Source: Bacteroidia bacterium (GTDB taxonomy: Bacteria; Bacteroidota; Bacteroidia; SpSt-205). From it: DNA of 54,869 bases. A program made the translations under genes and the position numbers. The notes beneath the pieces are model-generated. The model was not told the origin of the DNA, searched no databases, and saw nothing but the letters and a program-made list of their open reading frames with translations. This document shows positions 7,017-46,778 of this stretch, in pieces (position 1 is the stretch's first letter; each line of letters starts with the position of its first letter). The stretch lies in assembly GCA_026413325.1 (NCBI GenBank), contig JANZYW010000006.1, positions 1 to 54,869 on the forward strand, read 5' to 3'.

Positions 7017-8546
7017 ATGAAGTCTATTGCTTCTCTTTTGTATCCGATTGTACGCATTCCTCATAAACGGATAGAAGCCCTTCGTAGGGACCCTATCCAT
7101 AAGCAACACAAGTGGTATACCTATCTGCTTGAAAGAGGAAGCCAGACTCGCTATGGAAAAGCCCTGGGGCTGAAACCAGGGATGTCTTACACTTCTTTTC
7201 AGCGACAGGTCCCCATCGTCTCCTATGAAGAGCTCTACTCCTGGATAGAGCGCTCACTCAAAGGGGAAGCAGACATCCTATGGCCAGGTATAGTTCGATG
7301 GTTTGCCAAATCCTCTGGCACCACCAACGACCGCAGTAAGTTTATCCCCGTCCCGCCAGAGAGCTTCCGATATACCCACTTTCGGGGCGCAAAAGACATG
7401 TTCGCCACGTATCTCACGCTTTACAAGAACCAAACTCACCTTTTGGAGGGAAAAATCATCAGTATAGGGGGTAGCCACGCTATAAGTCCACTGGGGCCTC
7501 ATGCTCGCTGTGGAGATCTCAGCGCCTTGCTCTTAGCCAACATGCCGGCCTTCTACCGCTTATTTCGAGCCCCCTCCCTGGACATAGCCCTGCTTCCCAG
7601 TTGGGAAGAAAAAGTGCCGCGCATGGCAGAAGCTCTCCTATCTGAAAAGCAAAACATCGTGGGACTTGCCGGTGTCCCGACCTGGACAGTAGTCCTATTT
7701 GATGAACTGCTGCGACGCACAGGGGCTGCACACGTGCTGGAAGTATTTCCCCTATTTGAAGTATTCTTTCATGGAGCGGTGAGCTTCACGCCGTATGAAA
7801 AGCTGTTTTACCGGTACCTTCCCTCCCCTGCTGTCCGCTACATGGAGATATACAATGCCTCAGAAGGTTTCTTTGCGTTTCAAGATGAACCCGCCCAACG
7901 GGATCTACTTCTGATGGCCGACCACGGCATATTCTATGAGTTTATTCCCTTCAGCGCCTGGGAGCGAGGCCAATGGGAAGCCATACCTCTCGAACAGGTA
8001 CAACTGCATGAAGTATACGCTCTGGTGATAACGACAGTGGGGGGCCTATGGCGCTATCTGATCGGAGATACAGTCCGATTTGTGAGTCTACGTCCTTATC
8101 GTATACGCATAGCGGGCCGCACTCGCCACTACATCAATGCTTTCGGAGAAGAGGTCATGGTAGAAAATGCGGAGGTCGCCCTTCAAGCGGCTTGTTCGGC
8201 TACGAGTGCAAGCGTACGGGATTTCACAGTGGCACCGATATACCTCGCGGAAGGGTATCGAGGCGCTCATCAGTGGCTAATCGAGTTCATTCAGCCTCCC
8301 TCCAACCTTGACCGGTTTGCAGAGGTATTGGACCAAACTCTCCGCCAGGTAAACTCCGATTATGATGCCAAAAGAGAGGGGAATCTCGCACTGGGCCCCC
8401 CTCATATAACCTCCCTTCCAGAAGGGACTTTTTATCGATGGCTGCATAAAAAAGGACGCTTAGGGGGACAAAACAAAGTGCCTCGCTTGTCTAATGATCG
8501 CACCTATGCAGAAGAGATATTGGCTTTGGCTGCTACCCCTTCTTGA
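7017..8546 (+). CDS. GH3 auxin-responsive-promoter family protein
   Basis: 509 residues, normal for bacterial GH3-like proteins, which belong to the adenylate-forming (ANL) superfamily and in plants couple acyl acids to amino acids. The nucleotide-binding segment FAKSSGTTNDRSKFIPV lies at about 96-112, followed by the GGSHA and YNASEGFFAFQDE motifs typical of the family, and a C-terminal domain with the conserved GRTRHYINAFGEE stretch. The bacterial substrate is unknown. A TATCTTTTG (one base longer than the consensus) lies 13 bases before the ATG. Its 3' end overlaps the DUF4296 lipoprotein gene by 41 bp. Confidence 0.9.
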   Translation: MKSIASLLYPIVRIPHKRIEALRRDPIHKQHKWYTYLLERGSQTRYGKALGLKPGMSYTSFQRQVPIVSYEELYSWIERSLKGEADILWPGIVRWFAKSSGTTNDRSKFIPVPPESFRYTHFRGAKDMFATYLTLYKNQTHLLEGKIISIGGSHAISPLGPHARCGDLSALLLANMPAFYRLFRAPSLDIALLPSWEEKVPRMAEALLSEKQNIVGLAGVPTWTVVLFDELLRRTGAAHVLEVFPLFEVFFHGAVSFTPYEKLFYRYLPSPAVRYMEIYNASEGFFAFQDEPAQRDLLLMADHGIFYEFIPFSAWERGQWEAIPLEQVQLHEVYALVITTVGGLWRYLIGDTVRFVSLRPYRIRIAGRTRHYINAFGEEVMVENAEVALQAACSATSASVRDFTVAPIYLAEGYRGAHQWLIEFIQPPSNLDRFAEVLDQTLRQVNSDYDAKREGNLALGPPHITSLPEGTFYRWLHKKGRLGGQNKVPRLSNDRTYAEEILALAATPS

Positions 8547-32901: not shown

Positions 32902-33531
32902 TCAGGCCCGCTCATAAGTGCCAAATACTCTATCCCAGAAAGTCGTAGTCACGCCGAAGCGCTTCTCAGGGGTCTTGAAGTGGTGAAGATTGTGATTTTG
33001 CCACAGAGCCCGCAAAAAAGGAAAAGGAGGATGGGGATACTTGTGAATAGCAAAATGCACGTATTCATATAGACTGTATCCGATGCCAAACCCCGCAAAG
33101 AAAGGCCAAACCTTATCCCACCCCAGGAGTAGCCAGAAAAGAAACCAGAAAACCACTGCTATGGGCATCGTAACGAAAGGGGAAGCAGTAACAAAACGCA
33201 AGTCTCGCGGAATATCATGATGCGCGCCGTGCATGAAGTTGTGCCATCGCTGAACGAGAGGATGGTCCTCTACATAATGCAGAATAAAGCGATGAAGAAT
33301 ATACTCGGTGAAAGTCCACGTTGCGACCCCTCCTATAAAAAGGACACTCGCTAACCATCCAGTCATGCCTTGCCAAAGCACGGCGTATAAAAGCATAGCA
33401 AATGAAAGTCCGCCGTATACAGCCATGGCAAGGTAGGTATTCACATCTCGGTATCGACTGAGCCACTCCCAAGGCTGCTTCCAAAAAACCTGGGGATAGG
33501 TGAACTGCTTCTTGTTAGGTTTGCCTGCCAT
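32902..33531 (-). CDS. fatty acid hydroxylase family protein 1 (FA2H-like)
   Basis: 209 residues, an integral membrane di-iron enzyme with four hydrophobic segments and histidine boxes: EYILHRFILH, RWHNFMHGAHHD, EYVHFAIH and NHNLHHF, then KRFGVTTTFWDRVFGTY. The box pattern resembles fatty acid 2-hydroxylase/Scs7 of sphingolipid metabolism, so a hydroxylated acyl chain in a sphingolipid-like lipid is a plausible product (inference). The ATG at 33531 lies five bases after a perfect -7 box. A second gene of this type lies 157 bp upstream. Confidence 0.85.
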   Translation of the reverse strand: MAGKPNKKQFTYPQVFWKQPWEWLSRYRDVNTYLAMAVYGGLSFAMLLYAVLWQGMTGWLASVLFIGGVATWTFTEYILHRFILHYVEDHPLVQRWHNFMHGAHHDIPRDLRFVTASPFVTMPIAVVFWFLFWLLLGWDKVWPFFAGFGIGYSLYEYVHFAIHKYPHPPFPFLRALWQNHNLHHFKTPEKRFGVTTTFWDRVFGTYERA

Positions 33532-33688: not shown

Positions 33689-34261
33689 TTAGACGCTTCC
33701 AAAGACATAGTCCCACCAACGAGTGGTCACCCCATGGTATTTGTGCGGATCTCGAAAGTGGTGCCAGTGGTGATGGCGCCAGAGAGGTCTTAGCCATCGA
33801 AAAGGTGGTTGCGGCCATACATGTATCGAAAGGTGGAGTCCTTCATACCAGAGATACCCTATAACAAACCCGCTGTAAAATGCCCAGAAAAGTACATGAC
33901 CTCCCCAAAGAAGCCAAAATAGACCGCCAAATACCAAGGCTACTGGTATCGTGAGGCGCAAGGAAGTTACTATGTGCTCTGGTGAATGGGGCTTTCTGTG
34001 ATGAATCCAATGTATATCGTATTTCTGTGCGAGGGGGCGCCCAGGCTTCTCGTGAAAAGCAAAACGATGTATTAGGTACTCGACAAGAGTCCAACAAAGC
34101 CAACCGCTCCCAGCGACAAGAGCGACTTTCCAGACGGGGGCAAATGCCAAGCTCAGGGCAAACCCCACCCCTGCTACGCTTCCATAAACGATGAGAGGGG
34201 GAAGGAGAACCCGAAAAGCACCCACCCCTCGCAATCTGTGCAGGCTCTCAGTAGAATGCAT
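33689..34261 (-). CDS. fatty acid hydroxylase family protein 2
   Basis: 190 residues, membrane di-iron enzyme with the boxes EYLIHRFAFH, DIHWIHHRKPH, YEGLHLSIH and RHHHWHHF, followed by YHGVTTRWWDYVFGS. It shares the layout of the protein at 32902 but differs in many residues, so the two may act on different lipids or positions. The ATG at 34261 stands five bases after a perfect -7 box; a perfect hairpin follows its stop codon, separating it from the first hydroxylase gene. Confidence 0.84.
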   Translation of the reverse strand: MHSTESLHRLRGVGAFRVLLPPLIVYGSVAGVGFALSLAFAPVWKVALVAGSGWLCWTLVEYLIHRFAFHEKPGRPLAQKYDIHWIHHRKPHSPEHIVTSLRLTIPVALVFGGLFWLLWGGHVLFWAFYSGFVIGYLWYEGLHLSIHVWPQPPFRWLRPLWRHHHWHHFRDPHKYHGVTTRWWDYVFGSV

Positions 34262-35299: not shown

Positions 35300-37783
35300 C
35301 TACAATCCACGGACAAATCGGTCCTGCCAGTCCCTCCGTTTGGTGATGCGGATGTCCTGCAGCTTAGGAGAACGGGCTGAAATGGTCATAAAGTAACTCT
35401 GTCGGGGCCCGAAAGGAATCCAGTTGAAGCTCAGCTCCCAACAGTGCAGATCTCGATAGATATTGATGCTGGTAAAAGAAAGCGCCTTCTGAGTGAAGTC
35501 ATACCCCGAGGTCAGTTGTATACGCCAGTAGCGAGTGAGATTGAGCTCCCCTGAGAATCCTAACGTTTGAACCCACCGGTAAGTGGCTGAGTCACGAAGG
35601 AACTGCCGCTGCCCTACCAGATTATAACTGATATCTAATCGCCAAGGGAGAGAAAAGAATATGAGGGATTCCTCAGCTTCTCCAGGCGGAGTGGGAGGAC
35701 GACGGGGTTGGAGGGAGGTCGTCAAAGCCCAGTTCATCTGCGTAAGAGCCCCCACGCGACGGTCTACCTCCCACCGATAACGAGAGGTTCGAACACCCGA
35801 GGAGTCGTACCAATAAGGGTCTAAGGTAGCCGTGTAATTAAGGTTGAGGAGAGACCCTAAGAGGTTGGTCCGAGCAAATAGGGCGATGGGAGAGAGCGCA
35901 AAGCTGTCTGCGGCAAAATTGTAACTTCCACTCAGCCCGAAATTATCTAAGAGGGTGAGATACTTATACTTCTTACCTGTAGAATCACGCAGATCTCGAT
36001 ACCGAGCTTCTATCAGATTATTGAGAGAAAACTGAAGAGCTGTTTGGCGACCTGCGGGGGGGCTTCCATAAAAACCCCACGCCAGCGGATTGAGACGCCG
36101 TTCCCGTCCTTGGAAAGAGAGGGATTGGTAAAGTCCCCATCGAGGGTCAGAAAAGTCCGGACGCCACTGTCCCCCTACAGTCGGAATAATCGTATGGCGA
36201 AAGGCCAGCCCCTTTCGCCCCCGGAAAGTCCGTATCCCATATATGCGAGTCGTGAAGGTGACCGCTGCAGAAAAGTCACGAGCAGCTCGCAAGGCCTTTT
36301 TCCTTTCTTGGGTGAGGGTACCCGCTGTATCGAGACGATAAGCTATCTGCTCACTATAGAGGTATTCGTTGAAGCTGAGGGTAGGAGTAAGTTGAAAGTA
36401 TCGGAAGAGCGTATAGCCCGCGGCGACCTGGAGGGCATGCCGCACCCCCCACCGGAAGGTATCCCGCATGAGTGGCGTAAAAAGGAGGCTTTCAGGAAGA
36501 GCCATTACTCCCTGCGCATCCAGGCGATACGTATACCCGATCTTTTCATACCATCGGGCCCCCCCCTTAGAAACCTTCCGCTGAAAAGGAAAAACTCGGT
36601 TCTGATACAGAGCCAGCACGGGTAGTTGAAAACTCCAGGTTTTCTGGATAAGATTCTGGGTATGATTGGTAGAGAGCGTCAGCTGCCAAGGACTCCGAGG
36701 AAAACTTTTCTGGAAGGCAATGCTCGACTGGAGATTGGTAGAAAGAAAGTCTGTAGCATTGTAGCTCTGGCGGGCCAGGAAGGTGGAGCTCCCCCCCTGC
36801 ACACTGGCAGTCAAGCTGGCTGTAGGGGACACCGTCTGGCGATGCTGCCACCGTACGAACCCCATCCGAGTCGCCTGGTAATCGGGGTCTCCCGGTTCGT
36901 TGAAAGTCTGATAGGCATATTGCAAAGACAAAGAACCTTCATACTGGTACCGCTTCCGATAAGTCCATAACAGCTCAGAACGGAACCCCCCCCGGGTGAA
37001 TACATCTGCCTCTAAACGGGCATCCATGTATCGATTGATGGCCCAATAATAACCCAACCCCCGCAGAAAAAAACCTCTATCAGCTGCCTGTCCGATAAGC
37101 GGGAGAAGTATACCCGAGCTTCGACGATCAAGCAAAGGAAAGTATCCAAAAGGCAAGAATAGGGGCAAAGGCACCTCGCCTACAACAGCGTACAGAGGAC
37201 CGCTCACGATGCTCTCCTGCGGATACAGCTTCATCTTGGTAGAAGCGATATAAAAGTGCGGGGGACGCGCAGTGCAGGTGGTATAGTAGGCCCCCGCCGC
37301 ATAAAACGTACCGTCGGGATTCATCTGGAGAGCACGCCCCGCCAGAACCTCATCCGTGAGCTGCTGCCGCATACCAAAAATCTGACCCCGCCTTCGATGG
37401 AGATCATATCGAAGGCTGTCCATCTCATACCGCTCACTCCCATAGTAAAAGAGTGGAAGCTCCCGCAAAGAATCTCCCTCCCAGCGACCATATCCATATA
37501 AGAACCCCTTCTGCCACTCTACTCGCACGTATCCTGTCTGAAGGCGGAGATTCCCTTGCCGAATCAAAGCCTCTCGATACAGCCGTCCCTCTCCCGTGCG
37601 AAAGTCAAAGGCAATCGAATCAGCCGCCTGGTAAAACAGCGTGTCTTCAAAAGGACTGTATCGGATTAAGGAGTCACGCAAGGCAGGAGGAAGGGAATCC
37701 CCCTTAGGTCCCTCTCCGAGCTGCGCATAGATGCAGTTGTAGAGCCCCACTGCAATAACAACTGCGATTTTGTATCTTTGCAT
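35300..37783 (-). CDS. lptD: LPS assembly outer membrane protein LptD
   Basis: 827 residues. LptD inserts lipopolysaccharide into the outer leaflet of the outer membrane. Signal peptide about 1-20 (VVIAVGLYNCIYAQ), an OstA-like periplasmic jellyroll region (GEGRLYREALIRQGNLRLQTGYVRVEW, then YTTCTARPPHFYI), followed by the conserved PLPLFLPFGYFPLLDRRSSG entry segment and a long beta-barrel of alternating aromatic strands. It is the Bacteroidota form. The frame stays open to 38131, but this start (ATG at 37783) has the signal peptide and a perfect -7 box 12 bases upstream. Its start codon overlaps that of the divergent amidase gene in one CATG. Confidence 0.9.
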   Translation of the reverse strand: MQRYKIAVVIAVGLYNCIYAQLGEGPKGDSLPPALRDSLIRYSPFEDTLFYQAADSIAFDFRTGEGRLYREALIRQGNLRLQTGYVRVEWQKGFLYGYGRWEGDSLRELPLFYYGSERYEMDSLRYDLHRRRGQIFGMRQQLTDEVLAGRALQMNPDGTFYAAGAYYTTCTARPPHFYIASTKMKLYPQESIVSGPLYAVVGEVPLPLFLPFGYFPLLDRRSSGILLPLIGQAADRGFFLRGLGYYWAINRYMDARLEADVFTRGGFRSELLWTYRKRYQYEGSLSLQYAYQTFNEPGDPDYQATRMGFVRWQHRQTVSPTASLTASVQGGSSTFLARQSYNATDFLSTNLQSSIAFQKSFPRSPWQLTLSTNHTQNLIQKTWSFQLPVLALYQNRVFPFQRKVSKGGARWYEKIGYTYRLDAQGVMALPESLLFTPLMRDTFRWGVRHALQVAAGYTLFRYFQLTPTLSFNEYLYSEQIAYRLDTAGTLTQERKKALRAARDFSAAVTFTTRIYGIRTFRGRKGLAFRHTIIPTVGGQWRPDFSDPRWGLYQSLSFQGRERRLNPLAWGFYGSPPAGRQTALQFSLNNLIEARYRDLRDSTGKKYKYLTLLDNFGLSGSYNFAADSFALSPIALFARTNLLGSLLNLNYTATLDPYWYDSSGVRTSRYRWEVDRRVGALTQMNWALTTSLQPRRPPTPPGEAEESLIFFSLPWRLDISYNLVGQRQFLRDSATYRWVQTLGFSGELNLTRYWRIQLTSGYDFTQKALSFTSINIYRDLHCWELSFNWIPFGPRQSYFMTISARSPKLQDIRITKRRDWQDRFVRGL
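37773..37780 (+). promoter_or_regulatory. -7 promoter box of the amidase gene, inside lptD
   Basis: TATCTTTG, a perfect TAnnTTTG, one base before the ATG at 37782 and ten before the ATG at 37791, within the first codons of lptD. Confidence 0.65.
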
Positions 37784-38561
37784 GAAGAGTATGGGCAAAG
37801 GTAGGCGGCTAATGAGACCTTTTTTTCTCTTCGGAGCCGTCTGGATACTCAGTTCTTTCCGGCTCCTCAAACCTGCCCTCGTAGTCGTAGACGCCGGACA
37901 TGGAGGCAAGGACCCCGGCGCACATGGCAAAGTGTATAAAGAAAAAGATATCACCTTAGCTGTAGCCTTGCGATTAGCCGAGCTATTGCGAAAAGATTCC
38001 CACTTCCGAGTCATTTTGACTCGCGATACGGATACCTTCGTGGAGTTAGTCCGCCGAGCCGACACCGCTAATAAAGCGCATGCCGATTTCTTCGTCAGTA
38101 TCCACTGCAACGCTAACCCCAAGAAAGACATTCATGGCTCTGAGACCTACGCCCTCGGAGAGCACAAAAGCCAAGATAATCTGACCGTAGTCATGCGGGA
38201 AAACTCCTCTATCCTCATGGAAGAGGGATACCAGCGTACCTACGACGGTTTTGACCCGAACTCGGAAGAGGCTTATATCATTTTTTCTCTTATGCAGCAT
38301 GCCTTTTTGAAGCAGAGTTTGCGTTTAGCCAAAAAGATAGAAGACAACCTCATAGAGAAAACGAAAAGACCCAGCCGGGGGGTTAAGCAGGCAGGCTTTT
38401 TGGTCCTATGGCGTACCAGTATGCCCTCCGTCCTATGTGAAATCGGCTTTATCTCACACCCACAAGAAGAAAAATTTTTAGCCTCTTCCGCTGGACAGGA
38501 GTACATAGCTCAGGCTATCCACCAAGCTTTGCGCCAGTATATCGCAGCGGGCCAGGAGTGA
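37782..38561 (+). CDS. N-acetylmuramoyl-L-alanine amidase (Amidase_3)
   Basis: 259 residues. Cuts the bond between muramic acid and the peptide stem of peptidoglycan. Zinc ligands H40 (VVDAGHGG), E54 (KEKD) and H108 (SIHCNA), and catalytic E220 (LCEIGFI) are all present. A hydrophobic leader (PFFLFGAVWILSSF, about 13-26) is consistent with export. A lid of about 60 residues after SETYALG replaces the short loop of minimal enzymes. The start may be ATG 37782 or, if the -7 box sets the RNA end, ATG 37791. Divergent from lptD with overlapping start codons; exbB follows 15 bp after the stop. Confidence 0.92.
   Translation: MKSMGKGRRLMRPFFLFGAVWILSSFRLLKPALVVVDAGHGGKDPGAHGKVYKEKDITLAVALRLAELLRKDSHFRVILTRDTDTFVELVRRADTANKAHADFFVSIHCNANPKKDIHGSETYALGEHKSQDNLTVVMRENSSILMEEGYQRTYDGFDPNSEEAYIIFSLMQHAFLKQSLRLAKKIEDNLIEKTKRPSRGVKQAGFLVLWRTSMPSVLCEIGFISHPQEEKFLASSAGQEYIAQAIHQALRQYIAAGQE
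37796..37803 (-). promoter_or_regulatory. -7 promoter box of lptD, inside the amidase gene
   Basis: Minus-strand TACCTTTG, a perfect TAnnTTTG, 12 bases before the lptD ATG, within the first codons of the amidase gene. Confidence 0.65.
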
Positions 38562-43199: not shown

Positions 43200-45101
43200 A
43201 TGTGTAGAATAGGAGGACTCTGGTATCGGAAAGGGCCCATACCCCTGCCTGCTCTCCTCTCTCGACTGCAGGAGATGGCTTCCTTACAGATGCACGGCGG
43301 ACCAGATGGCGAAGGCGTATGGCTTCACCCAGAGAAGTGCCTCGGATTCGCTCATCGAAGATTGGCTATCATCGATCTTTCTCCAGCTGGAGCCCAACCC
43401 ATGCAGAAAGGCTCGCTGGTTATCACATACAACGGAGAAATCTACAACTACAAAGAACTCCGAACGGTATTGGAAAAGCGTGGCTATACTTTCTCGAGCA
43501 CTTCTGATACAGAAGTTCTTCTGTGGGGGTGGAAAGAGTGGGGGCCCGACCTTCTACCCCGCCTACGGGGAATGTGGGCGTTTGCTTTATGGGATGGGGA
43601 GTCGCTGTGGCTCGTACGAGACCGCTTCGGAGTAAAACCCCTCTTTTACTTTCTATCAGATGCGCTTCTGGCTTTCGCCTCTGAGCTTCCCGCTCTCCTC
43701 GCAGTACTCCCTGCATCTCCCTCGCCTTTCCTGCCGGCATTACCCATGTATCTCAGTTATGGATTTATCCGAAATCCCTACACATTCTATGAGGGGGTTC
43801 TACAGGTGCGTCCTGGGGGATATTTACATATCTCCGAGAAAGGGGCTAAAGAACGGCCATACTGGGACCCCCTCCAGGTCTTCTTCCCCGAAAAAAAGGT
43901 TACCTATTCTACGGAAGAAGTAGAAGCCCAGCTCTTGTCCAGCTTCGAAAGAAGGCTCATCGCAGACGTTCCAGTAGGTCTTTTTCTCAGTGGTGGGATA
44001 GATTCGTCTCTGGTCGCAGCTTTGCTCTCGGTAAAAACGCAAACCTTTCTCCCCACCTTTACCCTGGGTTTCGATGAAAATAGCTATGACGAAAGCTTCT
44101 GGGCTGCCCGCATCGCAGCTCATCTTCACCTCCCCCACTTCTCTACTCGGATCTCTCTCAGCGAGCTAATCCCCCTGGTAGAAAAAATACCCTTGCTCTA
44201 TGGACAACCTTTCGGAGACGCCTCTGCATTAGCTGTCTATGCGCTCGCCCAGTTTGCTTCTCAGCAAGTCAAAGTCGTCCTGTCCGCAGATGGAGGGGAT
44301 GAGCTATTTGGAGGCTACGTACGCCATACACAATCGATCTCGTGGCTTCGAGCTGCGGGCAGAATCCTACGGACCTTCCCCTGGAGTGGAAGGCACCTTG
44401 CGAAGCTACCCCTCTTCAAGAATCGTTTTCACAATCTATCAGCTAAGCTCCTGAAACTCTCTCATTTTCATGGTCACCATTACGGGGAAATGGTACAGGC
44501 CTTCCCAGAATCTTTGATTTCCTCCTATTTTACAGAACCTATATCCTCCCTGGTGTATATCGATGAGCCGCTTCCAGAGCCCTGGTACAGCCTGGGAAGC
44601 CGCCAATACGCAGATCTGCGTATTTATCTCTCCGATGACGTCCTCCAGAAAGTCGATCGCGCGACCATGGCCCATGCCCTGGAGGCCAGAGAGCCTTTCT
44701 TGGATCCTGAACTGGTGGAACTCGCAGGAAGGCTACCTGCCCTCGCTAAGGTACAAGGGACAGTGACAAAACGTATCCTCCGGGAGATTCTACATCGCTA
44801 TATCCCCTCTCCTCTATGGAAGAGGCCTAAACAAGGATTCGCTATTCCAGTCGCAGCTTGGCTCCGTAACCCGTTAGCGGAGCGTCTCCGGTACTATGTC
44901 TACAGTGAAGAGAGCCCCCTACGATTTTTACCGCTTGACCTGGAAAAACTCCGTGCAACCCATCGGCATCTGGAGGAAGGAGAAGAAGGACTCGGCCTCT
45001 TGTTTTGGCATCTTCTCGTTCTTGGGCTGTGGGGCGATTGGTATCCTACCAAATCTCTAAAAGCCGATAGTCTATCCCAGGCCAAAGGCGAGTCGGCTTA
45101 G
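43200..45101 (+). CDS. asnB: asparagine synthase (glutamine-hydrolysing)
   Basis: 633 residues. The N-terminal Ntn glutaminase domain has the required Cys2 (M-C-R-I-G-G) and the ITYNGEIYNYKEL and RDRFGVKPLFY segments. The C-terminal synthetase domain has the ATP loop FLSGGIDSSLVAAL, VLSADGGDELFGGY and the DDVLQKVDRATMAHALEAREPFLD block. It could make asparagine or act as an asparagine-synthase-like amidotransferase on another acid; context does not decide. AGGAGG occurs in codons 4-6, after the start, not before it. The last 56 bp overlap the convergent repeat-protein gene. Confidence 0.9.
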   Translation: MCRIGGLWYRKGPIPLPALLSRLQEMASLQMHGGPDGEGVWLHPEKCLGFAHRRLAIIDLSPAGAQPMQKGSLVITYNGEIYNYKELRTVLEKRGYTFSSTSDTEVLLWGWKEWGPDLLPRLRGMWAFALWDGESLWLVRDRFGVKPLFYFLSDALLAFASELPALLAVLPASPSPFLPALPMYLSYGFIRNPYTFYEGVLQVRPGGYLHISEKGAKERPYWDPLQVFFPEKKVTYSTEEVEAQLLSSFERRLIADVPVGLFLSGGIDSSLVAALLSVKTQTFLPTFTLGFDENSYDESFWAARIAAHLHLPHFSTRISLSELIPLVEKIPLLYGQPFGDASALAVYALAQFASQQVKVVLSADGGDELFGGYVRHTQSISWLRAAGRILRTFPWSGRHLAKLPLFKNRFHNLSAKLLKLSHFHGHHYGEMVQAFPESLISSYFTEPISSLVYIDEPLPEPWYSLGSRQYADLRIYLSDDVLQKVDRATMAHALEAREPFLDPELVELAGRLPALAKVQGTVTKRILREILHRYIPSPLWKRPKQGFAIPVAAWLRNPLAERLRYYVYSEESPLRFLPLDLEKLRATHRHLEEGEEGLGLLFWHLLVLGLWGDWYPTKSLKADSLSQAKGESA

Positions 45102-46764
45102 GACCTGCATACTTCTTGAGCCACTCCTCTAACCGCACTCTTTCTTCAGGATATGCTCGAACGAGCCAGGCGATCTGTCTCTTCCGTACCAGTTTTTCGA
45201 TCTGTATCGCTTTTGTTTCCTCTATCGTCAGCCGTTTCTTGACGAGCTGGAGACCTCCCATTTCACCAAATCCCTCGATTCCAGGAAGGCCTTTGATATA
45301 TCGACGACGGGTAGAAGACCCTCGAGCAGGCTCCAGAACCCACACCTCTATTTGCTTGACAGCCCAAACTTTTCGCTTCTCTAATCGAGGTTTCTTCAAC
45401 AAACGACCCTGTCTATCATAAAAGTGTGCAAAAACATATACCCTCCATCCCATTTTTACTCCCGCTACTGGGACCCGACCATATGCTTGGGTATTGACCC
45501 ATTCTCCGACGGAAAAGCCACTATACGCACTGACCAGTTCGCAGTGCTTGCGATGATGGGTGAAAAGATATCTCAAGTCATGGGCTAATCGTTCAGTAGC
45601 CGTCATCACACCTCTTCGCTGCGCATCACAGGGTACTTCATAAGCGGAAGGAGGGAGGTGTCGTATGGAAGGAGAAGCACACGTGTAGCGATCGAAGTTT
45701 TTATGCGCAACCTGTGGCAGGCCACAACTCACTCGTTCTGTCCGCCGGCGGTAGTGCTGCACCACAGGCATACGACAAGCGTATTTGTCAAATTGCTTGT
45801 GAGAGATTCGAGAGGGGTGACAAGCTATTTTCTCTGCCCACTGACGATGACGGATAGAAGATACTTCGCAAGCATACTTATCGAAGTTGCGGCGCTGTAA
45901 ATCAAAGGGAATACAGGTTATGCCCTCTGCATAGGTTCTGTGCGAGACGGAGGGGGGGGTACATCCCCCCTCTGAAGAACGCTTATGTCGCGGAGGGCGA
46001 ACCGTATAGAGAAAGCGCTGCGGGACCGAACGATGCGGAATTATTCTCGCTCGGTATAGGTGCCTTTCAGCTCGTTCGGGACGATGTGGGATCGCTGGTA
46101 GAGGAATGAAAAAATTCCGTTCTTCCCGTCGATGAGAGGGGGTAGAAGGGCGGAGAGTGTGCTTTTCAGCTCGCTGTGTATGAGGAGTTGGAGAGAATCG
46201 AGTACGCAGACGTTCCGCCCTTTGGGAATGGGAGAGGGCGGGAGAAGGTATGCGGCGCCTTTCCGCTATAGCAGGCCGATGCCGCCTTCGAAGGAATGGG
46301 AAGGAAAACCGTTCTGCGCGATTTGCATGGGGAATATCTCTCTGAGCAAGTCGCATCCGCTCAGAAGCTCGAGGAGAGTGGCGAAGTTTAGCCCCTGGAA
46401 TGCGATACCGCTCCGCTCGCATCGAAGCCCTTGAGCGACGGCTCTGAAGGGGAAGGCGAAACCGCTCCGCTCGCTCCAAGTGACGTACCGAGGGCTCATA
46501 AGGCCGAAAAGCCTCCCAACGCTCCATCGGCTTGTGTCGAGGCGTATATACAAAGGGACGGAAACGCTCTGCTCGACGAGTCGGACGAGGGCGACCATAC
46601 CGGTCTACACGGGTCTCGGCTCGCTTCTGGACTCGACGAGGACGCCGCTGCTCTTCCACGCGAACCCGTTCTGCACATTCAGGACCTGTACAACGAGGAG
46701 GAGCCTTTAGATCTTGCCCAGAAACCCACCCGAAGATCAAGAAAAATCCTAAAAGACGAAACAT
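45046..46764 (-). CDS. secreted basic protein with about 22 His-periodic 16-residue units
   Basis: 572 residues, family not recognised. Signal peptide about 1-16 (LLGFFLIFGWVSG). Residues 31-380 are imperfect units of 15-18 residues, each starting at [AF]-[ED]-[RK]. The acidic residue is at 32, 50, 66, 84, 100, 118, 135, 151, 168, 184, 200, 216, 233, 249 (Gln), 265, 280, 295, 311, 326, 343, 358 and 376. A histidine follows exactly 11 residues later in about 16 units. N-terminal units are very Arg-rich (RAERFR); from 265 on each unit also has a Cys, mostly at +4 (FDKYAC, AEKIAC, TERVSC). A non-repeat C-terminal domain of about 190 residues follows. The ATG at 46764 is preferred to a TTG at 46773. 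Secretion, and use of His/Cys for metal or disulfides, are inference. Confidence 0.7.
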   Translation of the reverse strand: MFRLLGFFLIFGWVSGQDLKAPPRCTGPECAERVRVEEQRRPRRVQKRAETRVDRYGRPRPTRRAERFRPFVYTPRHKPMERWEAFRPYEPSVRHLERAERFRLPLQSRRSRASMRAERYRIPGAKLRHSPRASERMRLAQRDIPHANRAERFSFPFLRRRHRPAIAERRRIPSPALSHSQRAERLRTRFSPTPHTQRAEKHTLRPSTPSHRREERNFFIPLPAIPHRPERAERHLYRARIIPHRSVPQRFLYTVRPPRHKRSSEGGCTPPSVSHRTYAEGITCIPFDLQRRNFDKYACEVSSIRHRQWAEKIACHPSRISHKQFDKYACRMPVVQHYRRRTERVSCGLPQVAHKNFDRYTCASPSIRHLPPSAYEVPCDAQRRGVMTATERLAHDLRYLFTHHRKHCELVSAYSGFSVGEWVNTQAYGRVPVAGVKMGWRVYVFAHFYDRQGRLLKKPRLEKRKVWAVKQIEVWVLEPARGSSTRRRYIKGLPGIEGFGEMGGLQLVKKRLTIEETKAIQIEKLVRKRQIAWLVRAYPEERVRLEEWLKKYAGPKPTRLWPGIDYRLLEIW

Positions 46765-46770
46765 CCAGCG

Positions 46771-46778
46771 CAATATTA
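46771..46778 (-). promoter_or_regulatory. -7 box of the His-periodic repeat protein gene
   Basis: Minus-strand TAATATTG, one mismatch at the fifth base, six bases before the ATG at 46764. Confidence 0.4.

Follow-up and report, generated by a model that had tools for sequence, protein, structure and literature searches.

Putative facing, overlapping housekeeping promoters between head-to-head lptD and amidase genes in Bacteroidia

Introduction

Where do two divergent genes begin, and from which promoters are they transcribed, when only a few nucleotides lie between their start codons? This question is raised by a locus of Bacteroidia bacterium (NCBI GenBank assembly GCA_026413325.1, contig JANZYW010000006.1), in which lptD stands head to head with the gene of an N-acetylmuramoyl-L-alanine amidase. 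The answer may bear on the question of how growth of the outer membrane is coordinated with remodelling of the cell wall in bacteria. The whole stretch of DNA analysed, 54,869 nucleotides long, is called the window below.

Bacteroidota sigma-A promoters are described as sharing the -7 consensus TAnnTTTG (PMC6847099, PMC9723704, PMC7366714). For F. johnsoniae, the -7 box is placed at -12 to -5, and 4-5 nt separate it from +1 (PMC6847099). The leaders mapped in this phylum have a reported mean of 33 nt in F. johnsoniae, while 5.5% of the mRNAs are given as leaderless for F. psychrophilum and about 3.7% of the 5' UTRs as shorter than 10 nt for B. thetaiotaomicron (PMC6847099, PMC9723704, PMC7366714). 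The literature searches that we made found no paper on the lptD-amidase junction.

Results

The lptD-amidase locus

The features of the locus are collected in Table 1. The lptD product matched PF19838 LptD_2 over the full domain (positions 1-464 of 464), and the amidase product matched PF01520 Amidase_3 at near full length (positions 1-173 of 174), confirming the gene identities given in the earlier note. Its letters and coordinates were likewise correct: the + strand reads CATG at 37781-37784, TATCTTTG at 37773-37780 and CAAAGGTA at 37796-37803, the last being TACCTTTG on the - strand. Genes for MotA/ExbB, ExbD, TonB_C and M23 proteins lie 3' of the amidase gene, and a nuoC-like gene lies 3' of lptD. 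Elsewhere in the window, the - strand carries a 575-aa open reading frame with numerous short R/H/AER-rich repeats (45046-46773) and two neighbouring genes (32902-33531 and 33689-34261) whose products, small membrane proteins that appear alike and contain histidine motifs, look like fatty-acid hydroxylases by eye.

Table 1. Genes, -7 boxes and predicted transcription starts at the lptD-amidase junction
Feature	Position	Strand	Remarks
lptD (LptD_2)	35300..37783	-	start ATG 37783-37781; protein MQRYKIAVVIAVGLYNCIYAQ...; PF19838 E 2.7e-136
N-acetylmuramoyl-L-alanine amidase (Amidase_3)	37791..38561	+	start ATG 37791-37793; protein MGKGRRLMRPFFLF...; PF01520 E 4.8e-55
amidase -7 box TATCTTTG	37773..37780	+	inside lptD codons 2-4; full TAnnTTTG in 3/10 genus genomes
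lptD -7 box TACCTTTG	37796..37803	-	inside amidase codons 2-5; conserved in 10/10 genus genomes
predicted amidase transcription start	37785..37786	+	leader 5-6 nt; from the F. johnsoniae spacing as described in PMC6847099
predicted lptD transcription start	37790..37791	-	leader 7-8 nt; from the F. johnsoniae spacing as described in PMC6847099

Start codon of the amidase gene

According to the earlier note, both genes begin inside the CATG, lptD with 37783-37781 and the amidase with 37782-37784. In the window, ATG 37782 does share the reading frame of the amidase. However, among ten genomes of the genus (that of the window, G000, and nine congeners), an in-frame ATG 9 nt upstream of 37791 occurs in the window's own genome alone, whereas all ten have a counterpart of ATG 37791 with nGCAAAnGTA after it; G002 also has an upstream ATG, but its reading frame ends at TGA after two codons. 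In addition, with the 4-5 nt described between box and +1 (PMC6847099), the transcript predicted from the amidase's own box would begin only downstream of ATG 37782. On this comparison, the amidase almost certainly starts at ATG 37791 and not at 37782, and a CATG start shared by two genes thereby disappears. We therefore reject the placement of both start codons inside 37781-37784, which can hardly be correct. The lptD ATG beside the amidase box is kept in 10/10 genus genomes, and the distance between the two start codons is 7 nt in the window and 5-9 nt across the genus. Start calling from a single genome is thus misleading where promoters sit inside neighbouring genes, as they appear to do in this lineage.

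The lptD -7 box

In all ten genus genomes, the lptD strand carries TAnnTTTG at 10-14 nt upstream of the lptD ATG, as is characteristic of a Bacteroidota sigma-A promoter. The third positions of amidase codons 2, 3 and 4, inside which the box falls, are C, A and T in every one of these genomes, while the encoded residues vary (Gly, Ser or Arg at codon 2; Gly, Cys or Ser at codon 4). Constant third positions despite varying residues point to selection on the DNA, and judged from this comparison, the conservation of the lptD box exceeds chance. One congener (G009, locus L002) carries an extra TACCTTTG directly abutting the lptD ATG, at spacing 0, besides the conserved box.

The amidase -7 box

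For the amidase box, the genus comparison gives a mixed picture of conservation above chance, with the TTTGC core, equal to lptD codon 2 CAA, in 9/10 genomes versus the complete TAnnTTTG in only three (G000, G009 and G007). In the remaining seven, it reads CATnTTTG or CATnTTCG. In 400 kb of genome G006, CA..TTTG was found 4-6 nt before ATG 3 times versus 54 times for TA..TTTG. Because the C-initial form is so rare near ATG in G006, the amidase promoter may be weak in these seven species; alternatively, it may be located elsewhere. In six of the seven congeners, no TAnnTTTG occurs on the amidase strand within 300 nt upstream; the seventh (G001) has one, but 129 nt away. A -33 element, sought by eye, was not clear for either gene.

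These observations would be explained if the lptD box alone were a real promoter, with the amidase transcribed from elsewhere and TATCTTTG a coincidence of the lptD codons. The 9/10 retention of the core speaks against such a coincidence, as does its fate in the congener G008 (L057, ~8,420-8,450), where lptD is separated from the amidase and lies downstream of, and on the same strand as, a fatty-acid-hydroxylase-like gene. There, lptD has retained TACCTTTG 7 nt before its ATG, but codon 2 is CGC instead of CAA, which fits CAA having served the amidase promoter, albeit in one case. The amidase was not found in this genome, which is 81% complete. The class-wide comparison below also speaks against an lptD promoter acting alone, and we regard this explanation as unlikely, though not negligible.

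Facing boxes across the class

Of 60 related genomes, 56 yielded the amidase, among them that of the window and those of 9 of 10 congeners. Both genes were present in 52 of the 60 genomes searched and stood head to head within 4 kb in 49 of these 52; in the three exceptions (G018, G039 and G051), they are on different contigs. Outside the genus, the head-to-head order holds in 39 of the 42 genomes with both genes, so that the synteny in relatives named as a check in the earlier note was found.

We searched for facing pairs defined as TAnnTTTG-N5..45-CAAAnnTA, taking the expectation from dinucleotide shuffles. The first set comprised 37 class junctions, after one of the 38 read (G044) was dropped for its 3.8 kb between the genes; the divergent G029 was not included. 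Facing boxes occurred at 19/37 of these lptD-amidase junctions versus 0.46 expected, and the mirror, back-to-back order at 4/37. The stricter TAHHTTTG, with no G in the middle two letters after F. johnsoniae, gave only 3/37 (0.26 expected), because the lptD box of the class is usually TAGTTTTG. Since the middle letters were relaxed from HH to NN after viewing the first set, the NN rule was then applied unchanged to held-out junctions from 40 further genera, one per new genus, taken among the matches listed, in which weak lptD matches are under-represented. The amidase motif was divergent from lptD in 36/40 (not so in G072, G074, G107 and G133), and 21 of these 36 junctions had a facing pair versus 0.42 expected, with the mirror order at 0/36.

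Pooling both sets, 40/73 class junctions carry a facing pair, with spacers of 5-39 nt, mostly 17-30 nt. The other 33 lack an exact pair, and allowing one mismatch added 23 of the 73, of which little is gained since shuffles gave 61/365, or about 12 per 73. At the other divergent junctions of the same class loci, the facing pair was found at 0/39 and the back-to-back pair at 1/39. Outside the lptD-amidase junction, the class loci contain 3 facing pairs versus 9.6 by shuffles, fewer than predicted. By these counts, the face-to-face layout is clearly above chance at class level. If the amidase box were a coincidence, a box on the amidase strand would not be expected opposite that of lptD at 40/73 junctions. 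The interlocked promoters proposed in the earlier note are accordingly strengthened on the lptD side (10/10) and in the recurrent layout (40/73), while the evidence for the amidase box within the genus remains mixed (full consensus in 3/10).

The lptD boxes of the class have further features of their own. G is the first middle letter in 26/40 of them versus 6/70 other boxes upstream of open reading frames (Fisher p 6e-10), the typical form being TAG(T/C)TTTG. At 43/73 class junctions, for example L062 (G017), L072 (G030) and L074 (G032), no ATG precedes the signal-peptide core of lptD, so the start there must be TTG or GTG; the core was located automatically, which left 7 cases in which no start preceded it and 3 without a core. 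Because ATG is often not the start codon of lptD in the class, lptD leader lengths derived from ATG only (median 226, n=19) are not meaningful. The G-bearing box and the non-ATG start could keep LptD output low or regulated.

Probable short leaders in the lineage of the window

The embedding of both boxes in coding sequence might reflect a property of the lineage. In G006 (L031-L050, 400 kb), TAnnTTTG lies 3-6 nt before ATG in 59/322 open reading frames, with peaks at 4 nt (28) and 5 nt (17). The ratio of boxes at spacings of 3-6 nt to those at 15-50 nt is 59:25 in G006, 17:11 in G011 (L096-L105, same family) and 7:2 in the window, compared with 18:65 in the pooled class loci. Since TAnnTTTG is mostly 4-5 nt before ATG, the family probably has many leaderless mRNAs, unlike the mapped Bacteroidota, for which few are described (PMC6847099, PMC9723704, PMC7366714). 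A leaderless-rich lineage would account for a promoter pair lying inside coding sequence.

Back-to-back pairs number 13 and facing pairs 5 in the same 400 kb of G006. Among the facing ones, two are at divergent junctions, which we take, naming the genes from their proteins, to be panB/ubiE and an ABC ATPase/GtrA-like pair; the facing layout is thus rare, yet not unique to lptD. The divergent panB-like and ubiE-like genes (L034, ~880-920) have facing TAACTTTG-N12-CAAAAGTA, a second interlocked pair.

In the window, the boxes are contained in TATCTTTGC-N13-GCAAAGGTA, a near-perfect inverted repeat, and one could read the two half-sites as a single palindromic operator for a regulator instead of two promoters. 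The box spacer, however, varies from 5 to 39 nt over the 40 class junctions, unlike a fixed operator, and the half-site equals the -7 consensus established for sigma-A, which precedes ATG in the 400 kb of G006 at the short spacings given above (59/322 open reading frames). We rejected the operator on account of the varying spacers; it is very improbable.

Discussion

Taken together, we interpret the junction as a pair of head-to-head envelope genes with two facing, overlapping housekeeping promoters, an old layout, with translation of the amidase beginning at ATG 37791, and we assign this reading a probability of roughly 0.7. Both promoters would be of the sigma-A type (TAnnTTTG), opposed to each other and overlapping, each box falling within the opening codons of the opposite gene (lptD 2-4; amidase 2-5). 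Transcription is predicted to begin near 37791 leftward for lptD and near 37785 rightward for the amidase, leaving leaders of 5-8 nt and an antisense overlap of about 7 nt between the 5' ends of the two RNAs. The face-to-face layout would be old and common to much of the class, whereas its embedding in coding sequence would be particular to the compact lineage.

A bidirectional promoter as defined by Warman et al. 2021 reportedly has a shared, reciprocally overlapping -10 element. Such a promoter is ruled out here: the boxes at 37773-37780 and 37796-37803 do not overlap but are separate, 15 nt apart and facing each other. As judged by sequence only, the opposed elements in the window appear near enough for one polymerase to cover both. 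From the general footprint sizes of the polymerase and the 15-nt distance, open complexes at the two boxes are expected to be exclusive. A polymerase in open complex at one box would cover the other promoter, so that lptD and the amidase would compete for initiation, and initiation would be mutually exclusive by geometry, provided that both promoters are used. Exclusive or balanced expression of lptD and the amidase, as suggested in the earlier note, may follow from this arrangement.

Whether such competition serves a purpose is a separate matter. The overlap could instead lack a regulatory role and be either a by-product of compaction of the genome or an ancient accident not easily reversed. 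The genus is compact and leaderless-rich, G006 has its two further facing pairs at divergent junctions, and a promoter embedded in another gene is hard to move. On the other hand, the layout is common also in class genomes with longer amidase leaders (median 48 nt, 31 resolved), and none of the 39 other divergent junctions in those class loci has facing boxes. We consider a by-product a real possibility, somewhat less probable than its opposite. A conserved promoter clash that serves class-wide as a switch between LptD and the amidase or sets their ratio, holding the growth of the envelope layers in step, is for now a tentative and rather doubtful proposal. If it were true, the clash would keep LPS insertion (LptD) and peptidoglycan cutting (amidase) coordinated without any regulator. 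The facing pair between the genes for LPS export and wall hydrolysis is a simple candidate for this role, being present in over half of the class junctions that were sampled and in none of the other divergent junctions examined.

The putative promoters of the lptD-amidase junction are like other Bacteroidota sigma-A promoters in their -7 consensus, and the 4-5 nt from box to start described for these was taken over for our prediction (PMC6847099). Mapped Bacteroidota are described as having few leaderless mRNAs, while in the lineage of the window the box is mostly 4-5 nt before ATG. Bidirectional sigma-70 promoters likewise have two opposed starts at most 25 bp apart, but as described in PMC10268837 their -10 elements are nearly symmetric and overlap reciprocally, and their starts are usually 18 bp apart, in contrast to the two separate -7 boxes found here. 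The scbA-scbR locus of Streptomyces coelicolor is likewise composed of divergent genes with facing promoters and overlapping RNA 5' ends, for which polymerase occlusion and collision have been modelled as the basis of a switch (PMC3134472). Its RNA overlap is given as 53 bp, compared with about 7 nt predicted here and 12-16 nt typical in the class as calculated from the spacers, and scbA-scbR has a dedicated regulator (PMC3134472), whereas both boxes of the lptD-amidase pair are of the housekeeping type, with no known regulator. Facing promoters with overlapping 5' ends are therefore a known kind of arrangement, as scbA-scbR is described in PMC3134472; what appears to be new, within the literature searched, is the conserved lptD-amidase instance.
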